Position numbers and translations under genes: made by a program. The notes beneath the pieces are model-generated. The model was not told the origin of the DNA and searched no databases. It was given only the letters and a program-made list of their open reading frames with translations. Positions 3,248-6,740 of a DNA stretch of 6,740 nt are shown in pieces (the stretch's first letter is position 1; each line of letters opens with the position of its first letter). The stretch is from Deltaproteobacteria bacterium (lineage in GTDB: Bacteria; JAUYMQ01), in contig JAUYMQ010000196.1 in assembly GCA_030698575.1 (NCBI GenBank), positions 1-6,740 on the forward strand, in the 5' to 3' direction.

Positions 3248-3457
3248 TTACGGATTAATCGCGATGTGAAAATATCTCCGCACGGCAGCGTTGGCGAGCA
3301 GGGCCTCGACGAGCACGATGACGGGGCCGGGAATATCCCGGTCGCCAGCCTCCCAGCGCCGGACGGTACGGCCGTCAGCGACGTTGACGAGGTGGGCGAA
3401 GCCGGCGGTGGAGAGGCCCAGACGATGCCGAGCGGCCCTGAGGTCAGTCGGCGTCAT
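3248..3457 (-). CDS. Small helix-turn-helix transcriptional regulator, 69 aa
   Basis: The product is a compact Xre/Cro-like HTH domain. MTPTDLRAARHRLGLSTAGF gives helix 1 and the start of helix 2, AHLVNVADGRTVRRWEAGDR contains the turn and recognition helix with the R-x-W-E-x-G signature, and DIPGPVIVLVEALLANAAVR forms the closing helices. The length of 69 residues means a bare DNA-binding domain, as in phage Cro-type proteins. The frame is open further upstream to 3577, but the protein family begins at MTP, so ATG 3457 is chosen. It overlaps the upstream minus-strand gene by 14 bases and has no strong ribosome site, so coupled translation is likely. It is the best candidate to bind the palindromes at 3670-3717. 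Whether it is a lysogeny repressor or a Cro analogue cannot be told. Confidence 0.8.
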   Translation of the reverse strand: MTPTDLRAARHRLGLSTAGFAHLVNVADGRTVRRWEAGDRDIPGPVIVLVEALLANAAVRRYFHIAINP

Positions 3458-3650
3458 ACCACCAGCCCATTCCGAGCTCCTGGGCGATCTCGCGGCCCGG
3501 CGCATCGGCGAGGGCGAGATCATGGACGCGGCGCAGTGTGGCCTCATCGGCACCGCGGACGGCGGTGCGGTAGTCATCCGGGAGGGCGGTGTAGCGGTTG
3601 GCCAGCTCGGCGAGGACGGCGGCGGTCAGGGTTGCTGGGTGGTTGGTCAT
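3444..3650 (-). CDS. Hypothetical 68-aa protein, first gene of HTH operon
   Basis: ATG 3650 on the minus strand is preceded by GGAGA at a 5-base spacing, which selects it over an upstream in-frame ATG at 3662. The 68-residue product (MTNHPATLTAAVLAELANRY, then LPDDYRTAVRGADEATLRRV, then EIAQELGMGWWYDAD) is acidic and alpha-helical. The segment REIAQELGMGWW resembles the second and third helices of an HTH, but no complete DNA-binding domain is visible. It precedes the HTH gene, overlaps it by 14 bases and shares its promoter. It could be a partner or antagonist of the HTH protein; this is a guess from gene order. A much longer minus frame runs upstream to 4340 but is a shadow of the plus-strand gene. 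Confidence 0.6.
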   Translation of the reverse strand: MTNHPATLTAAVLAELANRYTALPDDYRTAVRGADEATLRRVHDLALADAPGREIAQELGMGWWYDAD

Positions 3651-4416: not shown

Positions 4417-4707
4417 ATGGCTGGACGCCCTCCCAAGGAGAAGTCCTTCGCCAATATGCTCAAGATCGCCATCAACGAGGCGAACGAGCAAGGCGGGACC
4501 AAGCTCCGCGACGTGGCCGACGCGCTGGTGACAAAGGCGCTCACCGGCGATGTGCCGGCCATCAAGGAAGTTGCCGATCGTCTCGACGGCAAGGTGCCGC
4601 AAGGCGTGATCGGTGGCGAGGAAGACGATGCCCCGCTGCGTGTGCAGCTCATAGAACTGGTTGCCGGTGTCCGCAGTCCAGGTTCACCTCCCGCCGAAAC
4701 TGGTTGA
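4417..4707 (+). CDS. Small terminase-like / DUF5681-type DNA packaging protein
   Basis: The 96-residue product begins MAGRPPKEKSFANMLKIAIN, a basic 'GRPPK' hook followed by helices, continues with LRDVADALVTKALTGDVPAI and ends its conserved part with VADRLDGKVPQGVIGG. The pattern 'GRxPK...SFA..L...A..DGKVPQ' is typical of small proteins encoded directly upstream of the large terminase in alphaproteobacterial phages and annotated as DUF5681 or small terminase. Small terminases recognise phage DNA and stimulate the large subunit ATPase. A clear helix-turn-helix is not obvious, so the assignment rests mainly on gene order and motif. AGGT at 4405-4408 is a modest ribosome site. The 3' end overlaps terL by about 41 bases, indicating translational coupling. 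Confidence 0.65.
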   Translation: MAGRPPKEKSFANMLKIAINEANEQGGTKLRDVADALVTKALTGDVPAIKEVADRLDGKVPQGVIGGEEDDAPLRVQLIELVAGVRSPGSPPAETG

Positions 4708-5968
4708 TGTCTTTCTAGGGCCTGCCCTTTACCGGGTGGCCTATGGCGGGCGTGGTTCGGCCAAGACACGCTCATTTGCAACGATGTCTGCCGTGATGGG
4801 CTATCGGCTGTCCCATGCCGGTGAGCGTGGCGTCATCGTATGTGGCCGCGAGTTCATGAACTCGCTGGCGGATAGTTCATTTGCCGAAGTCAAACAGGCG
4901 ATTGAGGACGAACCGTGGCTTGCCGCCGCGTACGATGTTGGCGCGAATTTCATCCGCACCAAGGACGGCCGCATTGAGTTTGCCTTTGTCGGGCTGCGCC
5001 ACAACCTCGCTTCGATCAAGTCAAAGGCCAGAATTTGGGTTTTGTGGGTAGACGAAGCTGAGCGGGTGAGCGCGACGGCGTGGCAGATCGCCGACAACAC
5101 GGTGCGCGAGGAAGGCGCTGAAACGTGGGCAACATGGAACCCGGAACGCAAGGGTTCGGCCACGGACCTTCGCTTTCGCCAGAACCCGCCGCCAGAGTCC
5201 AAGATCGTCGAGATGAACTGGCGGGACAATCCGTGGTTCCCATCGACGCTTGAAAAGAAGCGTCTAGCTGATCTCGAAAAACGTCCCGACCAATATGCCC
5301 ATATTTGGGAAGGCGATTACGTGACGGTGGTTGAAGGCGCTTACTTCGCCGCCTCGCTGACCGAAGCCAAGGCCAAGGGCCGGATCGGCAACGTCTCGCC
5401 TGATCCTCTGATGACCTATCGCGCGTTCTGGGACATCGGCGGGACCGGGGCCAAGGCGGACGCCTGTGCGATCTGGATAGCCCAGTTCATCGGTCGCGAA
5501 ATCCGGGCGCTGAACTACTACGAGGCGGTCGGCCAGCCGCTCGCCACGCACGTCGCTTGGCTCAGGGACAATGGTTACGGCAAGGCGCTGTGTGTCCTGC
5601 CGCACGACGGCGAAACCAACGACAAGGTGTTTGACGTTTCCTACGACAGCGCACTGCAATCCGCGCAGTTCGAAACCGAAATCATTCCCAATCAGGGCAA
5701 GGGCGCGGCCAAGATGCGGATTGAAGCTGCCCGCAGACTGTTCCCGTCGATCTGGTTCAACGCCGGCACGACGGAAGCCGGACGGGAAGCGTTGGGCTGG
5801 TATCACGAGCGCAAAGATGAAGAGCGCGGCGTCGGGCTTGGCCCCGAACACGACTGGTCGAGTCACGGCGCAGACGCCTTCGGCCTGATGTGTGTTGCCT
5901 ATGAAGCGCCGCTGGAGCGGAAGAAGACGCAGCCGGTTCGACATGGACCGGGAGCATGGTTGGGCTGA
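4667..5968 (+). CDS. terL: Phage terminase large subunit (PBSX-type)
   Basis: This is the ATP-driven packaging motor and nuclease. Counting from the upstream in-frame TTG at 4661 (435 aa), the ATPase has Walker A GGRGSAKT (29-36), an adenine-side motif with REFMNSLADSSF, Walker B IWVLWVDEAE (125-134, D131/E132) and a coupling motif TWNPE (158-162). After NWRDNPWFP and YAHIWEGDY comes the RNase H-like nuclease with FWDIGG (D258), DACAIW (D268), LPHDGE (D316) and a C-terminal HDWSSHGADAF (D405). All expected acidic residues are present, so it should be active. The start GTG 4667 gives MSAVQVHLPPKLVDVFLGPA, the usual beginning in relatives; TTG 4661 is the alternative and neither has a strong ribosome site. 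The last residues, PVRHGPGAWLG, are repeated after the reversed gene downstream. The portal gene follows. Confidence 0.96.
   Translation: MSAVQVHLPPKLVDVFLGPALYRVAYGGRGSAKTRSFATMSAVMGYRLSHAGERGVIVCGREFMNSLADSSFAEVKQAIEDEPWLAAAYDVGANFIRTKDGRIEFAFVGLRHNLASIKSKARIWVLWVDEAERVSATAWQIADNTVREEGAETWATWNPERKGSATDLRFRQNPPPESKIVEMNWRDNPWFPSTLEKKRLADLEKRPDQYAHIWEGDYVTVVEGAYFAASLTEAKAKGRIGNVSPDPLMTYRAFWDIGGTGAKADACAIWIAQFIGREIRALNYYEAVGQPLATHVAWLRDNGYGKALCVLPHDGETNDKVFDVSYDSALQSAQFETEIIPNQGKGAAKMRIEAARRLFPSIWFNAGTTEAGREALGWYHERKDEERGVGLGPEHDWSSHGADAFGLMCVAYEAPLERKKTQPVRHGPGAWLG
5930..5968 (+). repeat. Direct repeat copy A: 3' end of terL
   Basis: These 13 codons end terL (QPVRHGPGAWLG and TGA). They match copy B at 6270-6308 at a constant offset of 340 bases. 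CCGGGAGCATGGTTGGG (5948-5964) is identical in both. Codons differ at eight positions including the stop, and five of the seven sense-codon differences are silent. Confidence 0.85.
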
Positions 5969-5974
5969 TCTAGC

Positions 5975-6211
5975 CTAGCCTGATGTGAGTTTCGCCAGAG
6001 CGCGAAAGTGAATCTGGTGTGCTCGCGCTGGTGACAGGCCGAGTGTGGCAGCGATAGCTTTATAGGTCTGAGGGCGTCGAGCAGTACGCGCGGTATAGAT
6101 CAGTCGCTCGCGCTTACTAAGCGCTGCCAATGCTTCTGGTGTTGGTGTTAGTGCCGCCGCCTTTGCTCTCACCGACTGGATGTATCGCTCGCGCTCATTC
6201 GTGGTGGGCAT
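5975..6211 (-). CDS. Sigma-70 region 4-like small protein (moron gene)
   Basis: The 78-residue product ends with a helix-turn-helix closely patterned on sigma-70 region 4: ALSKRERLIYTARTARRPQT (residues 30-49), then YKAIAATLGLSPARAHQIHF and RALAKL. Compare the family 'L..RER.V...R......T..EIA..LGIS..RV.QI..RALKKL'. Regions 1 to 3 are absent, so it cannot be a full sigma factor; it may bind -35-like DNA or the beta-flap, or act as a decoy. ATG 6211 is chosen because AAGGA lies upstream (minus strand, 6226-6222, 10 bases ahead); the frame extends to 6271 but into the terL-like repeat. It is opposite to the packaging genes it interrupts, visibly less GC-rich, has its own promoter and is bounded by a terL-end duplication: all signs of a later insertion. 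Confidence 0.75.
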   Translation of the reverse strand: MPTTNERERYIQSVRAKAAALTPTPEALAALSKRERLIYTARTARRPQTYKAIAATLGLSPARAHQIHFRALAKLTSG

Positions 6212-6235
6212 CGTGCTATTTCCTTGTCTGCCAAC

Positions 6236-6264
6236 AAAGTAACAGTGACGGACGAAAATGGCAA
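6236..6264 (-). promoter_or_regulatory. Promoter of the reversed sigma-4-like gene
   Basis: On the minus strand TTGCCA (6264-6259, five of six to consensus) and TACTTT (6241-6236) are 17 bases apart, and TG one base ahead of the -10 box (TGTTACTTT) gives an extended -10. Transcription would start near 6229, leaving a short leader with AAGGA and then ATG 6211. The -35 box overlaps the start of the terL-like mini-ORF, so the gene carries its own expression signal independent of the late operon. Confidence 0.55.
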
Positions 6265-6308
6265 AGGCCAAGCCCGTGCATCACGGGCCGGGAGCATGGT
6301 TGGGTTAG
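6258..6308 (+). pseudogene. 16-codon terL-end remnant, possible portal leader ORF
   Basis: The frame ATG 6258 to TAG 6308 encodes MAKAKPVHHGPGAWLG. Its last 12 residues match the end of TerL at 10 positions, while no other part of TerL is present. It is therefore the displaced 3' end of a terL gene. The ATG may be new or an old internal lysine-region codon pair changed by chance. The TAG abuts the portal ATG (TAGATG), so translation of this remnant could still deliver ribosomes to the portal gene. No strong ribosome site precedes the ATG. Confidence 0.6.
6270..6308 (+). repeat. Direct repeat copy B: second terL 3' end
   Basis: This is the partner of 5930-5968. It encodes KPVHHGPGAWLG and ends with TAG instead of TGA. 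Across 5931-5968 against 6271-6308 I count 29 identical bases of 38, with 17 in an unbroken run (6288-6304). Confidence 0.85.
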
Positions 6309-6740
6309 ATGGCAAAGACCGCCGCCAAAAAGAAAACGTCCGACGACGATCTGCTCCACGCCGGCCGTGAGGCGTTCGAGAAGTGCGTCGATGCCGAGCG
6401 CGACAACCGCCGTACTGCACTAGAGGATATCCGCTTCGCCCGTGAGGGCGTGCAGTGGCCCGACAACATCCGCAAGCAGCGCGAGAAAGAAGGGCGTCCC
6501 TGTCTCACCATCAGCAAGCTCCCGGCGTTCATTCGTCAGGTCGTCAACGACGCCCGCCAGAACAAGCCCGGCATTAAGGTCAGGCCGGTAGACTCCGGAG
6601 CCGACATCAAGGTCGCCGACATCATGTCGGGCCTGATCCGCAACATCGAATATTCCTCGAACGCCGACGTGGCCTACGACACGGCGGTTGAGTGCGCCGT
6701 GACCGGCGGCATCGGCTATGTCCGGATCGGCATGGACTAC
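6309..6740 (+). CDS. Phage portal protein, P22-type, N-terminal part
   Basis: Translation from ATG 6309 stays open for 144 codons to the window end, so the gene is cut off by the window. After a basic leader (MAKTAAKKKTSDDD) come a charged helix (ERDNRRTALEDIRFAREGVQ), the motif WPDNIRKQREKEGRPCLTIS, then KLPAFIRQVVNDARQNKPGI and IKVRPVDSGADIKVADIMSG, and finally NADVAYDTAVECAVTGGIGY. 'GRPCLTxNxLxxFIRQVVNDxRQNKPxIKVxPVD' is the signature of P22-like portal proteins, which form the dodecameric ring at the capsid vertex through which terminase pumps DNA. The start abuts the preceding TAG and has no clear ribosome site of its own, pointing to coupled translation. The place just after terL fits. 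Confidence 0.92.
   Translation, partial: MAKTAAKKKTSDDDLLHAGREAFEKCVDAERDNRRTALEDIRFAREGVQWPDNIRKQREKEGRPCLTISKLPAFIRQVVNDARQNKPGIKVRPVDSGADIKVADIMSGLIRNIEYSSNADVAYDTAVECAVTGGIGYVRIGMDY

Follow-up and report, generated by a model that had tools for sequence, protein, structure and literature searches.

P22 TerL without residues 483-499 does not bind the portal, and C-terminal portal binding had been reported earlier for T3 and lambda too (PMC5290284). Docking of lambda TerL takes place via a C-terminal tether (PMC9026076). The locus described here resembles the tails of P22 gp2, T3 and lambda gpA in that an apparently portal-specific sequence stands at the C-terminal end of TerL, with the portal next in gene order. 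It differs from P22, whose tail is basic (RPVRRGR), in that the putative tag, a short GxGxW[ML]G motif, is found across different TerL families, and in that the evidence here is sequence comparison.

Layout of the window and the duplicated terL end

The window, i.e. the whole stretch of DNA that was analyzed, is a complete 6,740-bp contig and carries the left-hand portion of a phage late operon. The features around the terL-portal junction are:

4661..5968, + strand: terL, large terminase subunit, 435 aa (Pfam Terminase_3 PF04466, 5e-20; phrog_3717, 3e-56)
5921..5968, + strand: copy A, the last 15 codons of terL and its stop TGA (KKTQPVRHGPGAWLG), by sequence comparison
5948..5964, + strand: 17-nt block, identical to 6288-6304
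5975..6211, - strand: 78-aa gene with a sigma-70 region 4-like helix-turn-helix, ATG at 6211 and stop at 5977-5975 (Pfam Sigma70_r4 PF04545, 2e-9)
6258..6308, + strand: stub ORF of 16 codons, MAKAKPVHHGPGAWLG, its TAG abutting the portal ATG
6261..6308, + strand: copy B, second terL tail, 15 codons and stop TAG, homologous to copy A and to the TerL tails of loci L109 and L113
6288..6304, + strand: 17-nt block, identical to 5948-5964
6309..6740, + strand: portal gene, N-terminal 144 aa, running off the contig end (Pfam P22_portal PF16510, 4e-46; phrog_156)

Further upstream, the window encodes a phage-borne GcrA-like cell-cycle regulator (890-1411; PF07750, 2e-23) and, on the minus strand, an Xre/Aca2-like helix-turn-helix gene, possibly a regulator (3248-3577).

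The initial annotation had reported that the end of terL recurs 340 bp downstream, after a minus-strand gene. This was confirmed: the 41-nt repeat (5924-5964 versus 6264-6304, spacing exactly 340) matches at 32 of 41 positions (78%), far beyond chance, as the best of 20,000 mononucleotide shuffles of 5969-6308 reached 26/41. Direct counting also reproduced the 17 identical bases (CCGGGAGCATGGTTGGG), the agreement of the two encoded tails at 10 of 12 residues and the silent character of five of the seven sense-codon differences. The recurrence of the last 12 codons, described as exact, is so for these 17 bases and not outside them, and the homology reaches further upstream, to 15 codons, once the repeat is compared with L109 (AKAKPVHH / AKPKPVHH). 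Over these 15 codons, the two copies share 11 residues and 32 nt. Copy B starts at codon -15 relative to the L109 TerL tail (AKAKPVHHGPGAWLG) and carries its own ATG (6258) directly in front, which completes the 16-codon ORF; its stop and the portal start form TAGATG.

The divergence between the copies is uneven along the 41-nt match, where the first eight codons differ at nearly every silent site and the next five are identical. By our own count of silent-site arrangements, such a run of identical codons has a p of about 0.14 and is weak evidence; the 17-nt identity was dropped as proof of gene conversion, being statistically weak. The 17-bp word was absent at this locus from every other viral contig searched, and elsewhere it occurred in one contig only, in an unrelated reading frame. 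Both copies share the ending GPGAWLG, which is rare (1 of 82 distinct tails); this points to an ancestor shared not long ago, or to gene conversion of the final codons, more than to a pair of unrelated parents.

The 340-bp unit contains a single ORF, the 78-aa helix-turn-helix protein, and no recombinase. The protein matches PF04545 with 37.2 bits against a curated cut-off of 24.1, and family searches found region 4 only and no sigma-70 region 2 (core and -10 binding). No relative of this gene turned up in pattern scans of viral contigs, phages and plasmids. In alphaproteobacterial genomes, there were weak matches only, inside far longer open frames (331-442 aa), which are probably ordinary sigma factors. 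No sigma-70 promoter-like site was seen for the insert, and its one terminator-like site is weak, on the plus strand and inside the reversed gene.

terL-portal junctions in relatives

TerL relatives and portal relatives were screened for the structure of this junction. Empty sites, which the initial annotation had proposed to look for, were found in many relatives; there, the two genes touch or overlap, with the terL stop about -32 to +8 nt from the portal start. Filled sites were found at about 30 distinct loci; their inserts measure 48-1386 bp and are for the most part plus-strand. An insert is thus present at the terL-portal boundary in some relatives and absent in others, as is the case for morons and mosaic inserts. 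Regex and DNA scans of these about 30 loci revealed no full second tail in any other insert-bearing relative, so that the arrangement in the window is unusual. Searches for the 340-bp unit at the same point in other phages, as suggested at the outset, found no other copy within the limits of the pattern scans.

L109 is a filled site and has the sole in-register repeat found, a 14-nt sequence, TGGATGGGCYGATG, that flanks its insert, once where terL ends and once where the portal begins, with a single mismatch. L113 is the ungapped counterpart, in which the same tail DNA runs straight into the portal. The TerL of L113 has no detectable similarity to that of the window (no tblastn match, no Pfam family). 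The portal of L109 is the nearest to that of the window and the portal of L113 is among the nearest, and the TerL tails of both loci end KPVHHGAGGWMG, so the expectation that uninterrupted relatives would end KPVHHGPGAWLG held only approximately. The tails nearest to copy B are the TerL tails of these two loci, and copy A is nearest to the same two, less strongly, which indicates that each copy is a putative tag matching portals of this type.

Other variations were observed at the junction. In L014 (4050-5574), an HNH-endonuclease-like gene, recognized by eye, and a minus-strand helix-turn-helix-like gene directly follow a TerL tail HGAGSWMG, and terL, having lost its stop, stays open for about 23 further codons. 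L200 and L203 have independent TerL tails ending YRGPGAWLG, and in L200 a 396-bp gap precedes a portal 60% identical to that of the window.

TerL tails and portal similarity

The relation between tail and portal was analyzed for 100 non-redundant TerL-portal pairs using partial Mantel tests. Tail similarity followed portal similarity (r=0.70, p=0.001, n=100) and was not significantly related to the TerL body (r=0.07, p=0.14, n=100); TerL body and portal body were uncorrelated (r -0.06, n=100). A position profile placed the portal signal at residues -1 to -7 only, and every profile segment in the TerL body followed TerL. The outcome was the same for loci with at least 100 bp between the genes (r=0.70, p=0.001, n=43), and the signal was found within the portal clade of the window (r=0.23, p=0.001) and within its TerL clade (r=0.45, p=0.001).

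At the level of motifs, a W[MLA]x ending was present in 47/47 pairs of the window's portal clade, spanning eight TerL clades. It also occurs on most TerLs outside the window's family that precede such portals, these being Terminase_6 where a Pfam family was found, and a GxGxWMG ending is carried by TerLs without detectable similarity to that of the window, given a window-like portal. Three named phages also have a W[MLA]x ending, namely Xanthomonas phage PBR31 (GGWMA), Chlorobiaceae phage CV-1-33 (Terminase_6, tail GWMG) and EBPR podovirus 1 (GGWMG). Conversely, the TerLs of L003-L006 are 75-78% identical to that of the window, end VTGY and are paired with a different portal, and SU10-type portals pair with other tails. 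The W motif is lacking in P22 (RPVRRGR) and L087 although their portals belong to the P22 family, so the tail rule holds by portal clade and not for the whole Pfam family.

These comparisons suggest that the last ~7 TerL residues are a putative portal-matching tag, which would travel with the portal gene and not with the motor. The tie between a short TerL end and the portal is the broader and more interesting result of the analysis. It does not fully separate linkage from functional matching: if the inserts postdate tail exchange, as may be the case, a tail that is simply linked to the neighboring portal gene could look functionally matched to it. If portal matching depends on the seven-residue C-terminal tag instead of the terminase body, this would explain how different terminases can be fitted to the same portal, and the match between tag and portal would represent a directly testable recognition rule.

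In L003-L006, L034 and L090, whose TerL tails end in SSVTGY or similar, proteins of 684-700 aa are encoded downstream. The one tested, from L003, had no Pfam match, and these proteins are possibly an undescribed portal family.

Origin and possible role of the spare tail

TerLs of the window's family are freely exchanged against different portals, and since the last ~7 residues go with the portal, the exchange point lies just upstream of these residues. We consider the window to be, with reasonable but limited confidence, a mosaic joint produced by illegitimate recombination at the terL-portal boundary and carrying a putative portal-docking tag. The most plausible reading of the spare copy is a scar left by the swapping of modules at this junction. 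Under this scenario, a segment ending with terL and its functional tag (copy A), followed by the reversed sigma-4-like gene, would have been joined to a different but closely related terL tail fused to the portal, about 15 codons before that tail's end. Copy B would then be the leftover older tag, its stop kept beside the portal ATG, and would have gained the ATG at 6258 to become a 16-codon leader before the portal. No close relative (>80%) of the window junction was found among the loci screened, and it is for this reason that the order of the recombination events is inferred. The resemblance to morons and to the modular mosaicism of tailed phages lies in a small gene of opposite orientation between two conserved late genes and in a novel joint. 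Unlike in morons, the coding end of the neighboring gene is duplicated, fully in the window, partly in L109 and not in the other inserts at this junction.

The initial annotation was partly supported in its interpretation that a foreign module replaced the end of terL: the extra terL end does mark an insertion or exchange, while the proposed likeness to integrative elements found no support. An integrative-style module, in which the sigma-4-like gene and a replacement terL end inserted into a resident terL and restored its end, with copy B as the old end, would yield the same final structure and is compatible with the likeness of copy B to tails of the portal's lineage and with the empty sites. 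As with elements that rebuild the 3' end of a target gene, a direct repeat of the gene end flanks the insert. However, there is no recombinase or integrase in the unit, no second occurrence of the module was found, the sigma-4-like gene has no relatives in the viral contigs, phages and plasmids scanned, other inserts at the junction have no restored end and the copies have diverged in their first codons; such a module is unlikely, and a self-restoring one was not borne out. Unlikely, too, is a scenario in which the terL end was duplicated inside a single phage lineage, the copies then diverged, whether or not gene conversion took part, and the reversed gene entered between them. The rare ending and the 17 identical bases common to both copies favor it, but eight divergent codons followed by five identical ones need a later conversion, for which the run alone is weak evidence.

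That the window is an assembly chimera of two coexisting phages in the metagenome bin appears very unlikely. The window is an entire contig of a 653-contig genome, and GcrA, present in only 2 of 14 control genomes, is absent elsewhere in the assigned 4.1-Mb genome, which suggests possible mis-binning of the contig. The reading frames are nevertheless intact on both sides, the 17-nt word is below the usual assembly k-mer length, and L109 has a similar in-register repeat. Copy B could also be a portal leader peptide unrelated to terL, as it forms a complete ORF abutting the portal start. This explanation, already considered in the initial annotation, is refuted by homology to TerL tails and retains hardly any probability, since copy B agrees with copy A at 11 of 15 residues and equally, at 11 of 15, with the TerL tail of L109.

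A leader role for the TerL-derived stub is nonetheless possible. Within the mosaic-joint explanation, the stub would have been retained because the terL end in ungapped relatives would double as the translation start region of the portal. As the ungapped terL end overlaps this region, parting the two genes would need two copies of the overlap, which fits L109 and the window. The minus-strand insert provides no plus-strand ORF for translational coupling, and only the stub could presumably serve this function. The stub may thus be kept as a putative leader; no clear ribosome-binding site was seen for it. A highly speculative and improbable alternative is that a translated stub acts as a free 16-residue copy of the tag, which would occupy the TerL sites of the portal and tune docking or packaging order, i.e. 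a decoy peptide derived from a recombination scar. On the mosaic-joint reading, the spare tail would represent a sequence fossil of phage packaging-module swapping. Across the insert loci, an ORF ending at most 14 nt from the portal start was found in 22 of 30 (the window counted), compared with 29-31% at control ATGs.
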